A stretch of 64,000 bases of DNA from Flavobacterium sp. 83 (GTDB taxonomy: Bacteria > Bacteroidota > Bacteroidia > Flavobacteriales > Flavobacteriaceae), in assembly GCF_000744835.1 (NCBI RefSeq), contig NZ_JQMS01000001.1:310001-374000 (forward strand), given 5' to 3'. The notes beneath the pieces were generated by a model. It did not search any database. It had not been told where the DNA came from and was given only the letters and a program-made list of their open reading frames with translations. Shown in pieces: positions 3,777 through 28,090 of this stretch. The translations under genes and the position numbers were made by a program. How positions within the stretch are numbered: position 1 is the stretch's first letter; each line of letters starts with the position of its first letter.

Positions 3777-6203
3777 CTACCTTAATATCGCAATAATTAC
3801 CCCTGCCAAACTTGCCAAAACACCAGCTATACTAACAAATTCACCCGTACTGATCTTTTTAACTTCTGGCTTTTCTGGTACTATGATTTGTGAACCTGGT
3901 TTTACTTTAGGATAGGATCTAATAAAAAGGAATGAATGTGCCACAGCTGCTTTCCCATTAGGATAAATAATATAAGCTTTTTTTCTCCAACCTTTATTAT
4001 CGATACCTCCAACAGAACTTATATAATATCCAAATCCTTTACCCTTTTCATAAGGGATCTCAGAAGTCAACAATACATTTCCGGTAACTTTTACTCCTTC
4101 ATTGAAGGCAGCCACTTCAATTTCATCTCCAGGAAACAGAATAACATTGGTATTGCTTTTAGGATCCTTAACAATCGACTTCCAATCTACCGGTATCGTA
4201 GCAAACTTTAAATCTTCTTTTAGTTTTTTCTTCAATTTGTTTTGAATACTGTCTTTTTTACCCAAATTCAAATTGACGCTTTCTACCTCTTCAATTTGTT
4301 TGGCTTGAATCGGTCTTTTAATTTTAACACCTTCAACATTCGCTAATGAAGTAAGACCACCTGCGCGTTTTACAATATCATAAACCCTGTCTTTTTTATT
4401 TGCCAAAACATATTTTCCGGTATAATTTACAGCTCCATTAATCGTTACCGTTTCTGGTTTTTCGTACATCGCCATTTTGCGTATGTTCACTACATCAAAC
4501 GGTTGTAAGGCAAAGTTTTTTAATTGTTCATTGCTATCAGCAGTAATTTCAATATTAAATAATTCTACTTTACTAGGATTTGCATCATCTATTTTTTCTG
4601 CTTTAATCATTCTGGCTACTTCAACTCGTTTCGAAGCTGAGCCAGTTAATCCTCCGGCTTGAATCAATAAATCATTCAAAGTCAGGTTTTCATAATAATC
4701 ATATGTCCCCGGTTTTTTTATTTCACCATCTATTGTTATTTTATATTCTTCAACAAAATCTAAAATAGAATAAACTGTCACAACATCTTCTTTTTTCAAA
4801 ACAACATCCGCTTCCAGATCACCCGCCATTGCTTTTGTTAAATTAACGTTGACAATTTCCGTAGTCAAATCTTGTTGTAATCGAATTATTCTCGCTCTGT
4901 TGCTATAAGCATCTTCTTTTAAACCATCCGCTTTTGTAATCAAATCTGAAATTCGCATGCCTTCATAAAATGAGTACGTATCCGGTCTAAAAACTGCGCC
5001 TTCTATTTTGATACGATTTTCAAATCGGTTTAATATTTTTGTAACTCGAAATACATCACCCGAAAGTGGCTTGTAAGTATTAAATTCAGTAGCATTTACA
5101 TCTTTAACTTTAAACTCCTTACTTGTTTTTTGCAACACACTAACAGATGCCGTATATGCAAACTCATTAAATCCCGAAGCAAAAGATAAAAGATCATTAA
5201 AAGTCTCTCCTTTTTTCATTTCAAATATCCCTGGTCGTTTTACTTGTCCTTCTACAGTTACACGCTGCGTATAAGCAGGAATCCGAATCACATCATTATC
5301 CTTTAAACCCACATTATCAGATTGATCTCCATTGACCAAAAAATGATAAATATCAATATTTCGATATACTTTATTACCTCGTAACAACTCAATATTTCTG
5401 TAACTCCCATTCTTTCCGGGACCTCCGCCTAAAAACAACGCATTATAAACGGTTGCTAAAGAAGATACGGAATAATTACCCGGCTGTCTACTTCCTATTA
5501 ATGTCACTCTAATCGTTCTGATCCGACTTAAACTAATCCCTACCTGAGACTGACCTGATCTAACAGTACTGTAAACTCTTGCTATTGCTTCTTTTATTTT
5601 TTGTGTAGCAGCTTCGATGGTCATTCCAGAAACAGGAATCTGGCCTACATACTGAATATTAACTTTCCCTTCCATGGTAACGGGCACAGACGCATTAAAT
5701 TCCTGCACACCATAAACACTGATTTGCAATTCATCACCTGGTCCCAGTACATAATTCACTGGCGTAGCTAATTTTAAATTAGGCTCAAAGTTCAATGTTG
5801 GGTTATCAAACAATTCAGAACCAAAAATCAAGACATTAACCGAATCTTTTACTTTGGTATTGACAATTTTTTCTTGTTTTCTGGTGAGCTCTTTTGCTTC
5901 AATTTCAACTTTTTGATCCTCTTTTTTATCAAGATTGGAAGAATTAGAATTCCCCTCTAAACGCAATTTCAACTTAGCAAATTCGCTCTCTGACATTCCT
6001 TTACCCAAAGCCATTGGTTCTGCCTGTTCTATAGTGACATTATTCGTTTGCAATTGCGTTTTTATTTTAGCAATATCTGCATCCGATAAATAGTCTACTT
6101 TAATCGTACTTAAGTCCGTGCTTTTAAGTAAATCTTGAGCCAAAAGAGTCGAAGTTTGAAAAAGGGCAACAAACAATACAATAACTGTAATTATTTTTTT
6201 CAT
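3777..6203 (-). CDS. Large SLBB-domain polysaccharide export protein (Wza-like)
   Basis: An 808-residue secreted or outer-membrane-associated export protein. A signal peptide with no lipobox cysteine covers about residues 1-22 (ending TLLAQD). The polysaccharide export domain lies near residues 150-215 (NYVLGPGDELQISVYG, then GQIPVSGMTIEAATQKIKEA). At least five SLBB-type beta-grasp repeats follow, recognisable by headers such as VTVEGQVKRPGIF, IKIEGAVFRPDTY, ITIDGEIKKPGTY and VTINGAVNYTGKY. A hydrophobic helix closes the chain (SIAGVLASLAGVIIAIL). It is about three times longer than the two export lipoproteins of this locus, so it probably forms a different channel or a periplasm-spanning partner. 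Separated from both neighbours by repeat-bearing gaps. Confidence 0.88.
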   Translation of the reverse strand: MKKIITVIVLFVALFQTSTLLAQDLLKSTDLSTIKVDYLSDADIAKIKTQLQTNNVTIEQAEPMALGKGMSESEFAKLKLRLEGNSNSSNLDKKEDQKVEIEAKELTRKQEKIVNTKVKDSVNVLIFGSELFDNPTLNFEPNLKLATPVNYVLGPGDELQISVYGVQEFNASVPVTMEGKVNIQYVGQIPVSGMTIEAATQKIKEAIARVYSTVRSGQSQVGISLSRIRTIRVTLIGSRQPGNYSVSSLATVYNALFLGGGPGKNGSYRNIELLRGNKVYRNIDIYHFLVNGDQSDNVGLKDNDVIRIPAYTQRVTVEGQVKRPGIFEMKKGETFNDLLSFASGFNEFAYTASVSVLQKTSKEFKVKDVNATEFNTYKPLSGDVFRVTKILNRFENRIKIEGAVFRPDTYSFYEGMRISDLITKADGLKEDAYSNRARIIRLQQDLTTEIVNVNLTKAMAGDLEADVVLKKEDVVTVYSILDFVEEYKITIDGEIKKPGTYDYYENLTLNDLLIQAGGLTGSASKRVEVARMIKAEKIDDANPSKVELFNIEITADSNEQLKNFALQPFDVVNIRKMAMYEKPETVTINGAVNYTGKYVLANKKDRVYDIVKRAGGLTSLANVEGVKIKRPIQAKQIEEVESVNLNLGKKDSIQNKLKKKLKEDLKFATIPVDWKSIVKDPKSNTNVILFPGDEIEVAAFNEGVKVTGNVLLTSEIPYEKGKGFGYYISSVGGIDNKGWRKKAYIIYPNGKAAVAHSFLFIRSYPKVKPGSQIIVPEKPEVKKISTGEFVSIAGVLASLAGVIIAILR

Positions 6204-21844: not shown

Positions 21845-22969
21845 TTATTCAAAATAATTCAATGTAGCGTACCCGCCATCTTTTAGGTATTGTTCTTTTC
21901 GCATCAATTTCAAGTCTGACTGCATCATATCTTTTACCAAGGCTGGTAAATCATATTTGCATTCCCAGCCTAGTTTTGTTTTCGCTTTGGTTGGATCACC
22001 AATCAACAAATCAACTTCGGTCGGTCTAAAATATTTAGGATCAACTGCTAATACTTCTTTTCCAATCTCCAGTTGGAATGCTGGATTGCTACACGATTTA
22101 ATATAGCCTTTTTCTTCAACCCCTTCTCCTACAAATTCTAACTCAATGCCTACTTCTGCAAAACTCATTCGAACAAAATCTCTCACTGGAGTCGTTTTTC
22201 CTGTAGCAATGACCCAATCCTCTGCTTCATCAGCCTGCAAAATCATCCACATCATGCGAACGTAATCTTTGGCATGTCCCCAATCTCTTTTAGCATCTAA
22301 GTTTCCTAAATACAATTTATCTTGTAAAGCCAATGCAATTCTAGAAGTCGCTCTTGTAATTTTACGCGTTACGAAAGTTTCCCCACGAATAGGAGATTCA
22401 TGATTAAACAAAATACCATTACAGGCATACATGCCATACGCTTCTCTATAGTTTACTGTAATCCAAAAAGCGTACATTTTAGCCACAGCATAAGGCGAAC
22501 GAGGGTAAAATGGTGTTGTTTCTGATTGTGGTACTTCTTGTACTTTACCATACAACTCCGAAGTGGAAGCTTGATAAATACGGGTCTTTTTTTCTAACCC
22601 TAATAAACGAACGGCATCAAGGATACGCAAAGTTCCCAATCCATCCGCATTCCCAGTATATTCAGGTGTTTCAAAAGAAACAGCCACATGACTCATTGCA
22701 GCTAAATTATAAATTTCATCGGGCTGGATTTCTTTAATCAGACTAATCAAATTAGTACTATCCGTCATGTCACCGTAATGTAAAAAGAAGTTTCGATGAT
22801 CTACATGTGGATCTTGGTACAAATGGTCAATACGATCCGTATTAAATAAAGACGAACGTCTTTTTAATCCGTGGACGATGTATCCTTTTTTTAATAAAAA
22901 CTCACTTAGGTAAGCCCCGTCTTGTCCTGTTACCCCAGTAATAAATGCTGTTTTTTGTACTGCACTCAT
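21845..22969 (-). CDS. gmd: GDP-mannose 4,6-dehydratase
   Basis: Converts GDP-D-mannose to GDP-4-keto-6-deoxy-D-mannose using NADP. The glycine motif [15 protein letters not shown] is at residues 12-26. [25 protein letters not shown], and the catalytic [12 protein letters not shown] with YxxxK follow, as do [16 protein letters not shown] and [10 protein letters not shown]. Length 374 aa is normal. Together with fcl and manC it forms a GDP-L-fucose supply set. The gap to fcl (about 115 bp) is filled by a small heptanucleotide repeat, unlike the 7-nt gap between manC and fcl. Confidence 0.97.
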
Positions 22970-22972
22970 ATT

Positions 22973-23080
22973 CGTTATTCGTTGTTCGTTGTTTCTTGTT
23001 CGTTGTTTGTTCGTTGTTTGTTCGAAATACGAGAATCGTTTTTCGCTTTTTCTTCAACGATGGACGGTCAACGATGGCCG
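22973..23080. repeat. Short heptanucleotide repeat array between fcl and gmd
   Basis: About 108 bp made largely of 7-base units beginning with cg: cgttatt, cgttgtt, cgaaata, cgagaat, cgttttt, cgatgga, cggtcaa, cgatggc. Some units are shortened or doubled (for example tttcttgtt and tttgtt inserts). The units match or resemble those of the large array at 25065-25815. It starts 4 nt upstream of the gmd ATG, so it lies in the leader of gmd and in the fcl-gmd transcript. Confidence 0.7.
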
Positions 23081-23083
23081 AAT

Positions 23084-24034
23084 TTACATCTTCATTTGCT
23101 TAAACTGGTCAATGTTCTCTAAAAACCAACTGTAGGTCTTTTGTATTCCTTCCTCTAATTGTACTTGATGTTTCCATCCCAAAGCATGCATTTTGGAAAT
23201 ATCCATTAATTTTCTTGGAGTCCCGTCCGGTTTGCTGCTATCCCAAATAATTTCCCCTTGATGCCCAATAATTTTTTGGATGGTTTCTGACAATTGCTTA
23301 ATGGTTAAATCCTCACCCGTACCTATGTTATATAAATAATCCGGCAGTTTGTTTTCTAAAGCAAACACAACAGATTGTGCCATATCATCCACAAACAGAA
23401 ATTCCCTCATAGGTGTCCCGCTTCCCCAAAGGGTAACCGGAGCATTATTATTTATTTTAGCCTCATGAAATTTACGTATCATAGCCGGTAAAACATGTGA
23501 CGTATTCAAATCAAAATTATCATGAGTACCATAAAGATTTGTAGGCATCAAACTCACATAATCCTTTCCAAATTGCTTTCTGATTGCCTGACAGGTTTTC
23601 ACTCCAGTAATTTTTGCAATAGCGTACCATTCATTGGTTGGCTCCAAAGTATCTGTTAACAAATACTCTTCTTTTAAAGGTTGTGGTGCCCGTTTTGGAT
23701 AAATACAAGAACTTCCTAAAAAAATAAATTTCTCCACACCAGATTGCAATGCTGTGTCGATTAGATTATTCTGTATTTGCATGTTTTCCATAATAAATTG
23801 ATATGGAAAATCATTGTTCGCTAATATCCCGCCCACTTTTGCAGCAGCATCAATAATAACTTCCGGTTTTTCATTGGCCATGAAAGCGGCAACTTCCTGT
23901 TGCTTCCTCAGGTCCAACTCCTTACTGGAAACTCCAATCAAGTTAGTATAGCCTTTTTCAGTAAGCATTCGCCAGATGGCGCTTCCCACCATACCATTGT
24001 GTCCTGCTATATATATTTTGGTGCCTTTACTCAC
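23084..24034 (-). CDS. fcl: GDP-L-fucose synthase (GDP-4-keto-6-deoxymannose 3,5-epimerase/4-reductase)
   Basis: Second enzyme of GDP-L-fucose synthesis. It has the N-terminal YIAGHNGMVGSAIWR motif, DAAAKVGGILANN, the catalytic GSSCIYPK and YAIAKITGVK (YxxxK), then MPTNLYGTHDNFD and MREFLFVDDMA. Length 316 aa is normal. The start is GTG at 24034 (MSKGTKIYIAG); there is no in-frame ATG before the glycine-rich motif. It begins 7 nt after the manC stop, so the two are co-transcribed. Confidence 0.96.
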   Translation of the reverse strand: MSKGTKIYIAGHNGMVGSAIWRMLTEKGYTNLIGVSSKELDLRKQQEVAAFMANEKPEVIIDAAAKVGGILANNDFPYQFIMENMQIQNNLIDTALQSGVEKFIFLGSSCIYPKRAPQPLKEEYLLTDTLEPTNEWYAIAKITGVKTCQAIRKQFGKDYVSLMPTNLYGTHDNFDLNTSHVLPAMIRKFHEAKINNNAPVTLWGSGTPMREFLFVDDMAQSVVFALENKLPDYLYNIGTGEDLTIKQLSETIQKIIGHQGEIIWDSSKPDGTPRKLMDISKMHALGWKHQVQLEEGIQKTYSWFLENIDQFKQMKM

Positions 24035-24041
24035 AATTTTA

Positions 24042-25049
24042 TTAATTCAATAAATCAGAATTGGCTCTTTCTAATGCACTATACACACTTTTCACATCTT
24101 GTGAAAACTCTTTTTTCAAAATTAAATTAGCAGTAGGAGTATAAACGAATATGGTATCTTTTACCCCGATGAAAGCAGTATAATTATCGGTTCCAATCAC
24201 CATATTTCCGTTTTCGTCAACTTTGTGCCCAATAGTCAATAAATAATCGTAAACCGATTCAAAAGAACCCAAATCAGACCAAGCAAATTGAGACGTAACC
24301 ACTTTAATTTTTTTACTTCGCTCCATTACTGCATAATCAATGCTGATAGAAGGAATATCAAGAGATAAATCTAAATCTAAATTTCCTGCTGTATTATTTT
24401 CCCATGCTATTCTTGACTTTTCATATACTTCAGGATGAAAAGATTTTAGCTCTTCCAATAAAACACTGGCTTTAAAACAAAACATCCCACTATTCCACAA
24501 AAAATTACCTTTTGCTATAAAAGCAGCTGCAGTAACCTGGTTGGGTTTTTCTCTAAAAGAAACTACATCATCTCCTTTACGCTCGATATACCCGTATCCA
24601 ATTTCTGGTTTTGTAGGTACTATTCCAAAAGTAACGATAAACCCATTTAATGCTTTCTCAACCGCTTCATTAATTGCTTTTTCATAAGGGACCACATCAT
24701 CAATAATATGATCTGATGGAGTAACAATTAATATATCATCCGGTTGCGAAGCAAAAGCAGCAAACGCAATAGCAGCAGCCGTATTTCGTGGAGTTGATTC
24801 AATTATATCAATATATTGTGTACTTGATTTTTCTAAAACATTTCTACTCAAATGACAGTTATCAATATTACCGACAACCATCACTTTATCAGCAATATTA
24901 CGGTTCCGATCCACAGTCATTTCAAATAAAGATTTACCGTCAAATATATCCAGGTATTGTTTTGGTTGACTTTTTCGTGATAAAGGCCATAACCTACTAC
25001 CTACTCCTCCAGTAAGAATGACGTGTGTAATTGATTTTTTGTTTTCCAT
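24042..25049 (-). CDS. manC: Mannose-1-phosphate guanylyltransferase
   Basis: Makes GDP-mannose from GTP and mannose-1-phosphate. Signature HVILTGGVGSRLWPLSRKSQ followed by PKQYLDIF at residues 9-35, VTPSDHII near residue 108, EIGYGYIE, the FREKPN block and NSGMFCFKA. At 335 aa it is the single-domain form without the phosphomannose isomerase half. First gene of the manC-fcl-gmd group. Its leader is the long heptanucleotide array that ends about 15 nt before the ATG, an odd place for such a repeat. Confidence 0.95.
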   Translation of the reverse strand: MENKKSITHVILTGGVGSRLWPLSRKSQPKQYLDIFDGKSLFEMTVDRNRNIADKVMVVGNIDNCHLSRNVLEKSSTQYIDIIESTPRNTAAAIAFAAFASQPDDILIVTPSDHIIDDVVPYEKAINEAVEKALNGFIVTFGIVPTKPEIGYGYIERKGDDVVSFREKPNQVTAAAFIAKGNFLWNSGMFCFKASVLLEELKSFHPEVYEKSRIAWENNTAGNLDLDLSLDIPSISIDYAVMERSKKIKVVTSQFAWSDLGSFESVYDYLLTIGHKVDENGNMVIGTDNYTAFIGVKDTIFVYTPTANLILKKEFSQDVKSVYSALERANSDLLN

Positions 25050-25064
25050 GTTTTATTTTTTATT

Positions 25065-25815
25065 CGTTTACCGATGTTCGTTATTCGATGTCCGTTTACC
25101 GTTATTCGTTATTCAATGTCCGTTAACCGATGTTCGCTTTTCGATGGACGATGTTCGTTAACCGTTATTCGATGTCCGTTGACCGTTGTTCGATGTCCGT
25201 TGACCGATGAACGATTTTCGATGGACGGGAAAACGAAAGACGATGGACGATTTTCGTTGACCGTTATTCGATGTCCGTTGACCGTTGTTCGTTGACCGAT
25301 GTTCGCTTTTCGATGGACGAGAAAACGAAAGACGATGGACGATTTTCGTTGACCGATGGACGATGTTCGCTTTTCGATGGACGGGAAAACGAAAGACGAT
25401 GGACGATTTTCGTTGACCGTTATTCGATGTCCGTTGACCGTTGTTCGATGTCCGTTCACCGATGGACGATGTTCACTTTTCGATGGACGGGAAAACGAAA
25501 GACGATGGACGATTTTCGTTGACCGATGTTCGCTTTTCGATGGACGAGAAAACGAAAGACGATGGACGATTTTCGTTGACCGATGTTCACTTTTCGATGG
25601 ACGGGAAAACGAAAGACGATGGACGATTTTCGTTGACCGTTATTCGATGTCCGTTGACCGATGGACGATTTTCGTTGACCGATGTTCGTTAACCGTTGAC
25701 CGTTATTCGATGTCCGTTAACCGATGTTCGCTTTTCGATGGACGGGAAAACGAAAGACGATGGACGAGAAACCGATGTTCGTTATTCGATGGACGCTTTT
25801 CGATGGACGGAAAAT
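25065..25815. repeat. Large heptanucleotide (CGNNNNN) tandem repeat array
   Basis: About 750 bp that can be parsed almost entirely into 7-base units starting with cg: cgatgtc, cgttgac, cgttatt, cgttgtt, cgatgtt, cgctttt, cgatgga, cgaaaga, cgatttt. A single 8-base unit, cgggaaaa or cgagaaaa, recurs. The core cgaaaga after it starts at 25234, 25326, 25390, 25496, 25553, 25610 and 25751. All six distances (92, 64, 106, 57, 57, 141) equal a multiple of 7 plus 1, so the heptad register is kept strictly across the array. The array fills the gap between the TviB-like gene and manC. Open frames across it on both strands are by-products of the low stop-codon density. Confidence 0.9.
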
Positions 25816-25834
25816 GATGATTGCTATACAATTT

Positions 25835-27118
25835 TTACAATCTACCATCAACAGCTCTTCCCAAAACTCCTTTTACATCATACAAAATACTATTTGAATT
25901 TTGTAATCTTGAAAAGTCCAAATTTAAAAAGTCTGTATGCGCAACCCCCAAAACAATGGCATCAAACGTAGTATTGGGCAATGTATTTAAGGTAGTTAGT
26001 TTATATTCTTTTTTTACAGCATCAGGATCAGCCAATGAATCATATATTGTCACCGTAATGCCATAATCCGTTAAAGCGGCAATAACATCTACAATCTTTG
26101 TATTGCGAACATCAGGGCAGTTTTCCTTGAAAGTGATTCCAAGCATCAAGAGTGTTGCTCCATTTACAGAAATCCCTTTCTTAATCATCAGTTTTACAAT
26201 TTGAGAAGCTACGTATTCCCCCATACTATCATTTAGGCGCCTTCCGGCTAAAATAATCTCTGGATGATACCCCATTTCCTGCGCTTTTTGAGCTAAATAA
26301 TAAGGATCTACACCAATACAATGTCCTCCTACCAAACCAGGTTTGAAAGGAAGAAAATTCCATTTGGTTCCGGCCGCTTCTAAAACAGCCTGTGTGTCAA
26401 TGTTTATTAAGTTGAAAATTTTGGACAACTCATTCACAAAAGCAATATTAATATCACGCTGTGAGTTTTCAATTACTTTGGCTGCCTCGGCTACTTTTAT
26501 TGTTGGTGCCAAATGAGTACCGGCTGTAATCACAGACTGATACAATTTATTTACTTTTTGAGCAGTTTCTGGTGTAGAACCAGAAGTCACTTTTAATATT
26601 TTATCAACGGTATGCTCTTTATCGCCTGGATTAATTCTTTCAGGAGAATAGCCCACAAAGAAATCAACATTGAATTGTAAACCCGAAACGCTTTCCAAAA
26701 CAGGCACACACTCTTCTTCTGTAACTCCTGGATAAACTGTCGATTCATAAATGACAACATCTCCCTTTTTCAATAATTTCCCTACCGTTTCACTTGATTT
26801 GTATAAAGGAGTCAGATCCGGTCTGTTGTTTTTATCAACAGGCGTAGGTACAGTTACGATATAATAACTACAAGTTGCAATATCTTCTGGAATTGTAGAG
26901 CAATATAAACCTATACTAGCATTGTTTTTTTGAAGAAGTACTTTTTGCAATACAGCATCGGAAACTTCAAAAGTAGTATCGGTACCAGATTGCAATGAAG
27001 CAACTCTGGATGCATTGATGTCAAACCCAACAACCGCATATTTTGTTGCAAATAACCGCGCTAATGGCAACCCAACATACCCAAGACCAATTACCGCTAT
27101 TTTTATATTTGAGCTCAT
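25835..27118 (-). CDS. UDP-N-acetylhexosamine 6-dehydrogenase (TviB/VipA/WbpA-type)
   Basis: Oxidises C6 of a UDP-N-acetylhexosamine (GlcNAc or GalNAc) to the uronic acid with NAD. The N-terminal Rossmann motif is IAVIGLGYVGLPLARLF; the catalytic domain has AKVIENSQRDINIAFVNEL and the cysteine motif GLVGGHCIGVDPYYL near residue 265; the C-terminal domain has LGITFKENCPDVRNTKIVDV. Length 427 aa fits the TviB branch rather than UDP-glucose dehydrogenase. A WbpP/TviC-like 4-epimerase lies upstream, so the pair could yield a GalNAcA-type sugar. Substrate assignment is from family resemblance only. Confidence 0.88.
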   Translation of the reverse strand: MSSNIKIAVIGLGYVGLPLARLFATKYAVVGFDINASRVASLQSGTDTTFEVSDAVLQKVLLQKNNASIGLYCSTIPEDIATCSYYIVTVPTPVDKNNRPDLTPLYKSSETVGKLLKKGDVVIYESTVYPGVTEEECVPVLESVSGLQFNVDFFVGYSPERINPGDKEHTVDKILKVTSGSTPETAQKVNKLYQSVITAGTHLAPTIKVAEAAKVIENSQRDINIAFVNELSKIFNLINIDTQAVLEAAGTKWNFLPFKPGLVGGHCIGVDPYYLAQKAQEMGYHPEIILAGRRLNDSMGEYVASQIVKLMIKKGISVNGATLLMLGITFKENCPDVRNTKIVDVIAALTDYGITVTIYDSLADPDAVKKEYKLTTLNTLPNTTFDAIVLGVAHTDFLNLDFSRLQNSNSILYDVKGVLGRAVDGRL

Positions 27119-27625: not shown

Positions 27626-28090
27626 CTACTTAAATTTCATTTTCAAAACACATCCTAGTGATTCCAATACTAAAATATAGTGGGTATTATTTACCTCTTG
27701 AACTATTGCAGTTTGATTTGAAAATGGTCCTGAATCCAGTTCAATCTTATCACCAACTTGAAATGGAACTAACGAAATTTCACAATCAATAGAACTGTCA
27801 AGGCCTTTTTTAATAATATTGATTTCTTCATCCCTCACAATTGCCGGTTTTCCTAACCAAAATAAATATCGTACGGCTCCAGATGACTGAAATACTAAAT
27901 TCCTGGAAGCTTCTGGCAATTGAACGAAAACATAAGAATTAAAAAGTGGCACTTCAACCTTCTTTTTTCTATCAGACCATTGACGGACTTGTGTAATCAA
28001 GGGGCAATAACATTCGATTCCAATATTCCTCAATTGTTCCGCTACTTTTTTCTCCCATTTAGGTTTTGTATACACTACATACCAATTCAT
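27626..28090 (-). CDS. NusG-like transcription antiterminator (UpxY family)
   Basis: A 154-residue NusG paralogue. The NGN domain is obvious at the N-terminus: MNWYVVYTKPKWEKKVAEQL, then GIECYCPLITQ, VPLFNSYVFVQL and the FQSSGAVRYLFWLGKPAIV block. A KOW-like C-terminal part (FQVGDKIELDSGPFSNQTAI) follows. In Bacteroides, UpxY proteins are encoded at the head of capsule operons and let polymerase read through their leaders. Here the gene precedes about 27 kb of minus-strand polysaccharide genes, with hairpins in between, which fits that role. It is set off from the upstream dehydrogenase by a repeat-bearing gap. Confidence 0.9.
   Translation of the reverse strand: MNWYVVYTKPKWEKKVAEQLRNIGIECYCPLITQVRQWSDRKKKVEVPLFNSYVFVQLPEASRNLVFQSSGAVRYLFWLGKPAIVRDEEINIIKKGLDSSIDCEISLVPFQVGDKIELDSGPFSNQTAIVQEVNNTHYILVLESLGCVLKMKFK

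Follow-up and report, generated by a model that had tools for sequence, protein, structure and literature searches.

A CG-led heptad array in the manC leader of Flavobacterium sp. 83 as a probable solo copy of the repeats of an IVP element

What has filled the spacer between two polysaccharide genes of Flavobacterium sp. 83 with hundreds of bases of seven-base units that begin with CG? The array lies in a 64,000-nucleotide stretch of the genome (the window), between a TviB-like nucleotide-sugar dehydrogenase gene and manC, and not in a 23S rRNA gene. We propose that it is probably the heptad part of an IVP element, present as a solo copy that lacks the gene and has expanded through duplication of blocks. 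Such an element would be a short intergenic insertion in which a PF05635 gene (for the 23S-rRNA intervening-sequence protein, IVP or S23p, a four-helix bundle) stands between tandem 7- or 8-nt repeats, and its repeat words would go with the clade of the IVP. Repeats with a 7- or 8-nt period surround many IVP genes, and their words match the IVP clade. The interpretation in a preliminary description of this DNA, which saw in the array a possible regulator of expression, protein-binding site or recombination site, is partly supported.

Two arrays of one vocabulary

The array was confirmed as real at the coordinates of Table 1, with a length of 745 bases in a spacer that measures 785 nt on the gene strand from the TviB-like gene to manC. 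The heptads first reported in the manC leader are borne out by the CG-to-CG steps. Of the 102 steps, 91 span 7 nt and 8 span 8 nt; the other 3, of 14 nt, mark sites with TG in place of CG. On the gene strand the 91 seven-mers use 13 distinct words, most commonly CGTCCAT (20 copies) and CGGTCAA (14), with CGAACAT and CGAATAA also present. The leading CG is fixed by the way in which units were cut; the A found at position 6 in 12 of the 13 words is free of that constraint. The word list given earlier is that of the plus strand; the genes lie on the minus strand, so that the transcript carries the words given here. Tandem, degenerate 7-nt units in an intergenic position are the mark of STRR-type repeats, and the main array consists of them; TAACTGA is absent from its 13 words.

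Table 1. Arrays and genes of the polysaccharide operon in the window
Feature	Position	Strand	Remarks
gmd, GDP-mannose 4,6-dehydratase, downstream of second array	21845..22969	-	TIGR01472 over cut-off
Second, short array, same vocabulary, in fcl/gmd spacer (gmd leader)	22970..23083	-	reaches gmd start codon
fcl, GDP-L-fucose synthase, upstream of second array	23084..24034	-	NF047922 472.8 bits, cut-off 500
manC, mannose-1-phosphate guanylyltransferase, downstream of main array	24042..25049	-	TIGR01479 268.7 bits, below cut-off 372.95; profile positions 1-348 of 467 covered
Main CG-led heptad array, filling TviB-like/manC spacer	25065..25809	-	most transcript units fit CGNNYAN
Seven 8-base cores, one per higher-order block	25226..25750	-	CGGGAAAA/CGAGAAAA on + strand
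TviB-like nucleotide-sugar dehydrogenase, upstream of main array	25835..27118	-	TIGR03026 over cut-off; NF011729 535.7 bits, cut-off 592
UpxY-family antiterminator gene, same operon, upstream of TviB-like gene	27626..28090		NF033644 over cut-off

The pattern (CGN5)x3CG occurs 71 times in the window, 69 times in the main array and twice in the gmd-fcl spacer, against 0.01 matches expected from 100 dinucleotide shuffles (largest 1). Self-identity of the main array is 0.561 at lag 7, 0.522 at lag 14 and 0.509 at lag 21; the lag-7 value in 500 mononucleotide shuffles was 0.257 +/- 0.016 with a maximum of 0.314, an excess of autocorrelation for the array. Two scans over periods 5 to 12 yielded arrays in the window at period 7 alone; Tandem Repeats Finder (TRF), at its own threshold, also reports short rows of other periods elsewhere.

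The higher-order blocks are marked by seven 8-base cores, five of type CGGGAAAA and two of type CGAGAAAA, starting at 25226, 25318, 25382, 25488, 25545, 25602 and 25743. Their distances of 92, 64, 106, 57, 57 and 141 bp are as first described, every one being 7n+1. The statement that the heptad phase never slips was mistaken: each 8-mer moves the phase by +1, and the seven cores occupy all seven residues modulo 7. An eighth 8-mer at 25765, unlike the seven cores, had been overlooked. Growth by block duplication, also suggested earlier, is confirmed by TRF, which finds a 57-bp block 3.0 times at 96% and a 64-bp block 1.9 times at 98%, along with a block of 92 bp. These duplications speak for a neutral satellite, a row of units grown without function in an unconstrained spacer, with slippage and unequal crossing-over favouring a 7-nt unit. 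Against such a satellite, 99 of the 102 CG steps hold at 7 or 8 nt though the middle letters vary.

The array is not alone in its operon, for the gmd leader contains another one built from the same words. Two literal 16-mers taken from the main array as probes match the genome in 2 places with at most one mismatch and in 18 with at most two, confined to the two spacers and to one strand; these two probes found no further site of the same words in the genome. An assembly artefact is an unlikely source of the array because the genome is one contig and both spacers contain same-word arrays in relatives as well.

Related loci and the CG clade of IVPs

The search of related genomes that had been recommended did find same-word arrays in the same two spacers, and with them an association with PF05635 genes that the preliminary description had missed. 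By DNA comparison, 3 of 61 genus genomes match, the window's own genome included. Of the two others, F. granuli (G017) has many CG and CGACTCA heptad arrays at the same polysaccharide locus. The second, G010, carries CG arrays in its fcl-gmd spacer, where they enclose a PF05635 (23S_rRNA_IVP) gene of 115 aa (3.8e-40). The IVP of F. psychrolimnae, a 90% relative of the one in G010, also matches TIGR02436, four helix bundle protein. In F. urumqiense, whose manC is 88% identical to that of the window, and in F. yafengii (L037 and L039), the IVP frame in the TviB-manC spacer is broken.

A scan of the window and seven 20-kb stretches over periods 5 to 12 detected period 7 in 27 segments and period 10 in 2, with no segment of any other period. 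Among 80 manC loci, 13 show a segment of period 7 at some position, and the segments number 29 for period 7, 6 for period 8, 3 for period 12 and one each for periods 6 and 11. CG-spaced runs of period 10 were seen in F. granuli (L030:2274-2315 and 3840-3921), where a palindromic element of about 60 bp (CTTCTCGATACAATTTTATAAAA...TCACTCGAAGTGA) also occurs many times between heptad arrays (L031, L032).

The TviB-manC spacer is normally tiny. It is at most 50 bp long and holds no window word in 32 of 46 loci, against 785 bp here. Four of the 14 spacers over 50 bp contain an IVP, with its frame broken in two, and measure 496 to 2052 bp. Two of the other ten are short, one of 63 bp with a small array and one of 103 bp. 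The remaining eight, of 327 to 2140 bp, have 0 or 1 window word each; four hold a cytidylyltransferase-like gene, two hold heptads of other words and two hold neither, so that a long spacer by itself is no sign of the element. Because most TviB-manC spacers are tiny and those bearing IVPs are long, array and IVP look like insertions into this spacer, one of several kinds found there.

Intact IVPs of one clade, the CG clade, occur in the TviB-manC spacer at L038 (F. psychrolimnae), L077 (F. palustre), L241, L245, L246 and L247, and in the fcl-gmd spacer at L033 (the same gene as L240), L242, L243 and L244. CG heptads stand on both sides of the IVP in these spacers, and the neighbours of IVPs in relatives and in other genera were named by eye. 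We counted words of the window's 13-word vocabulary in 150-nt flanks, a repeat of an earlier test whose vocabulary had been selected in part with the relatives in view. All 10 CG-clade IVPs have at least three window words (minimum 6), as compared to 1 of 124 other IVPs. With 500 scrambled vocabularies a mean of 0.55 of the 10 CG-clade IVPs was reached, with a maximum of 7. Since L245 and L247 lie next to each other and their flanks overlap, the 10 IVPs stem from 9 genomes. L139 is the gene of L033 and L240 once more; it is included in the sets of 71 IVPs and 244 flanks described below and was dropped from those of 127 and 124.

The CG clade is rare, being found in 7 of 299 genus genomes. A family-wide search of 397 genomes adds three CG-clade IVPs (73-76% identical), one from each of three other genera. 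They stand at three other gene pairs, sugar loci by eye, with CG heptads present, and have 3, 8 and 9 window words in flanks whose edges are approximate. A neutral satellite would not account for words that mark one IVP clade at unrelated gene pairs and are missed by 123 of 124 other IVPs. Residues kept in the IVPs include an arginine pair and an NIxEG..R motif, which in the protein of L038 are at positions 38-39 and 47-54. The flanks of CG-clade IVPs are mostly of one sense, unlike the inverted flanks of many IVP loci.

No PF05635 gene lies in the window. Four occur elsewhere in the same genome, none of them a CG-clade match; in a comparison with three CG-clade IVPs their identity does not exceed 43%. 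With no CG-clade IVP in this genome, its arrays are solo arrays. F. granuli likewise has CG arrays and no CG-clade IVP at the cut-off used. Arrays thus persist without the protein in both genomes, as drift alone would allow, a point in favour of the neutral satellite.

Repeats around IVP genes in general

PF05635 is present in 60 of 61 genus genomes, in 116 of 148 genomes of a phylum sample and in none of 14 control genomes. Loci were chosen by HMM rank (30, 4 own-genome and 29 new) and by listing, independently of their flanks. Further loci came from listed places, in most cases a single one for each genome (40 regions, then 20), and represent a subset of the matches.

To score inverted flanks, the left 150 nt were compared with the reverse complement of the right 150 nt, with a threshold score of 18 or more. 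In the genus, 46 of 71 IVPs have inverted flanks, as against 7 of 137 other ORFs of the same loci; 4 of the 75 IVPs of the genus set were lost from the test through short or N-holding flanks, and one gene entered twice (L144 and L185) was below threshold both times. ORFs from 400 kb of the window's own genome score in 19 of 314 cases, a control that includes one IVP because one of the 20 stretches sampled had been placed around it. Elsewhere in the phylum the counts are 16 of 46 IVPs and 3 of 65 controls, with three same-genus loci (L196, L211, L213) excluded here and kept in the period test. Similarity of the flanks in direct orientation was rejected as a mark of IVPs (13 of 71 versus 8 of 137 in the genus, 3 of 46 versus 3 of 65 outside it).

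For periodicity, 110-nt flanks were examined at lags 4 to 13 and called periodic if they beat all 20 shuffles by at least 2 matches. This was so for 100 of 244 IVP flanks, at lag 7 in 65 and at lag 8 in 31, which together make 96. Flanks of own-genome ORFs were periodic in 38 of 628 cases over the ten lags, of which 13 fell at lag 7 and 4 at lag 8, and those of local controls in 14 of 98 (11 at lag 7). Of the 25 IVPs that are periodic on both sides, 24 have the same lag left and right. An 8-nt period is found in 19 of the 20 periodic flanks of a clade of 21 IVPs; many of these IVPs stand beside the same genes and so are not independent. No significantly periodic flank was found for 53 of 127 IVPs.

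The words follow the protein. IVPs that stand at different sites and have 60% identity or more share 18.6 flank 7-mers, as compared to 9.8 for permuted pairs, a result equalled in 2 of 2000 permutations. Under the strictest synteny filter, with zero shared context words, the trend weakens: the figure is 16.3 and was reached by 44 of 2000 permutations. Below 60% identity the shared flank words show no trend (means 7.6-8.6). The orientation of IVPs was discarded as a sign of insertion at the RNA level, since 102 of 106 are co-directional with the upstream gene and so are 67 of 70 controls.

A long inverted repeat of short units, with CACAGATGACACGGATTAAACGGATT on one side, also surrounds a PDDEXK_3 (PF13366) gene of the window's genome (L252:10689-11006; C1 850689-851006). 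IVPs may therefore not be the sole small genes so carried.

The commonest lag among periodic control flanks is likewise 7 (11 of 14 local controls), as a neutral satellite would lead one to expect. A lag of 7 or 8 common to both flanks is left unexplained by it, and so are the frequent inverted copies. We therefore regard functionless growth as an unlikely account of the array, though the best of the alternatives to a solo copy of an IVP element.

A function in the leader is a good deal less probable still. Heptads might govern how well manC and gmd mRNA is translated or how long it lasts, through hairpins or a protein of the S1, Csp or CsrA type, as has been proposed for TAACTGA. A-rich heptads do reach to about 10 nt from the start codon in the window and in several relatives; in one Beggiatoaceae genome the majority of TAACTGA repeats likewise stand directly before start codons (PMC4679880), and the hairpin of a Nostoc STRR has been suggested to act in stability or coupling (PMC2670836). 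TAACTGA is not enriched at IVPs, however (6 of 127 versus 3 of 43), and was rejected as an IVP word. Folding gains little over shuffles (z -2.0 and -2.5), not enough to base a strong RNA fold on, and the one match to a known RNA family is below threshold (27.4 bits, cut-off 54) and outside the arrays. Same-word arrays also precede gmd and, in other genera, ugd-, manA- and wzx-like genes (by eye), and come after the stop codons of IVPs. With the words before such unrelated genes and missing from the tiny TviB-manC spacers of most relatives, the earlier suggestion of a dedicated control of manC is unsupported by the present tests. A recombination site for swaps of polysaccharide cassettes is very improbable, even though one operon holds two like arrays of one vocabulary in the same orientation bracketing manC-fcl, the genes after manC vary (in both the window and G010 they are fcl and gmd, in F. 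granuli a polysaccharide-export-like gene), and in G292 (L245, L247) an IVP gene is tandemly duplicated along with long CGAACAT runs. In the loci inspected, no array coincided with an exchange junction.

Known systems and a proposed mechanism

The likeness to cyanobacterial heptameric repeats noted at the outset extends to the IVP genes. A tblastn search of plasmids with one IVP gave 44 records, 38 of them cyanobacterial. In 15 loci taken from these, which are in part near-copies of one another (L274 and L275), the best upstream lag is 7 in 12 of 15, a raw count of best lags. Inverted flanks scoring at least 17 occur in 7 of the 15, where shuffles, the sole control in this comparison, reach at most 15. 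Heptad words at these S23/IVP genes include GGGAGTA/GGGGAGT, TCAGGAG and GGGTGTA.

On three of the plasmids (L269, L271, L277) the IVP/S23 gene lies within a cas operon, arranged cas6-IVP-cas4 twice and cas10-IVP-cmr3 once, with short repeats alongside. A figure legend in PMC10910872 lists the 23S rRNA IVP among new CRISPR associations, which the IVP genes in cas operons may explain.

The cyanobacterial STRR heptamers of Calothrix and Nostoc resemble the arrays described here in being intergenic, in having several vocabularies and in flanking plasmid S23/IVP genes. They differ in their words, and a link to IVP is absent from the available text of PMC2670836, PMC4692102 and PMC4679880. The TAACTGA heptamers of Beggiatoaceae, Cyanobacteria and Bacteroidetes are alike in their position near start codons and, in some Bacteroidetes, in forming long mixed arrays (PMC4679880), and unlike in being one fixed word that is not enriched at IVPs. 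The GGGAATC and GGGGA(C/T)T repeats of Xanthomonas and Nostoc are heptameric, intergenic and variable in copy number, with an inverted pair, but are read as G-quadruplexes (PMC4692102). The main text of that paper, by Rehm et al., contains no IVP, S23 or intervening-sequence terms and does not name XCC0516 (2gsc), the solved S23p that X. campestris encodes (organism from PMC4990558). A list of four helix bundle genes of F. columnare is given, without repeats beside them, in PMC5524665.

The 23S rRNA intervening sequences with an S23p/IVP ORF in Coxiella, Leptospira and Brucella share with IVP elements a PF05635-type gene, a short length and stem-forming ends (PMC4990558). That of Coxiella also has heptamers, three GACAGAT units directly before the S23p start, or two in some strains; it is removed by RNase III, and in the view of the authors its S23p is not produced and the ORF is decaying (PMC4990558). 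The IVP elements considered here, by contrast, sit between protein genes, have long repeats linked to a clade and, in the window, are represented by a copy without IVP. The solved Xanthomonas S23p is a toroidal homopentamer (PMC4990558, citing Lin 2006), a protein with a structure solved and its function not known (PMC4990558). Both structures, 2gsc and 2rld, have 5 chains. IVPs also match profiles of Avd, a related four-helix bundle of diversity-generating retroelements, below cut-off (NF033474 5.9e-8, 33 bits, cut-off 80; PF22296 26.6-28.3 bits, cut-off 40).

A parallel to the pairing of clade and repeat, and to the solo copies, is that of REP/BIME sequences and RAYT, in which one protein clade goes with one repeat family and solo repeats occur without the gene. 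The parallel ends at the enzyme, since RAYT is a transposase, we know of no catalytic activity for IVP, and the mobility of IVP elements is inferred.

We envisage that the IVP pentamer binds the repeated core (CG..YA every 7 nt) of the transcript or the DNA, perhaps with one heptad unit per subunit. TRAP, which binds evenly spaced triplets, provides the analogy for a ring whose subunit spacing sets the period of a repeat. If the pentamer were to contact the fixed letters of successive units, a fixed period with free middle letters would result. The arrays would then be the cis part by which an element is kept, spread or silenced, and it would be as parts of elements capable of movement that they reach new spacers. 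Since the cognate IVP is missing from the window, the solo array there may be either a relict or served in trans; its clean CG spacing suggests that it is young or kept.

Heptamers are reported to be the most abundant longer simple repeats in several genomes, and the number seven has been explained by a guess about the polymerase alone (as cited in PMC4679880 and PMC4692102). Heptamers and S23p have been reported together in Coxiella, without generalising (PMC4990558), and in the text examined, none of the open-licence PMC papers considered joins heptamer arrays with IVP. A wider proposal, which we put forward tentatively and with less than even confidence, is that many bacterial heptamer arrays belong, as the cis component, to a single widespread class of very small selfish elements in which the IVP/S23p pentamer is the sole product encoded, each IVP clade recognising its own word, the spacing of the ring setting the 7- or 8-nt period and solo arrays being non-autonomous. 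The class could take in cyanobacterial STRRs, the CG, TTCAC and GGGTGTT arrays of Bacteroidota and the repeats of the Coxiella intervening sequence. If true, this would place cyanobacterial STRRs, Bacteroidota arrays and rRNA intervening sequences in a common frame. Joining heptads with IVP gives each a testable partner, one protein with one word and one period, and the link between S23/IVP and short repeats is a concrete, testable lead on the purpose of such repeats.
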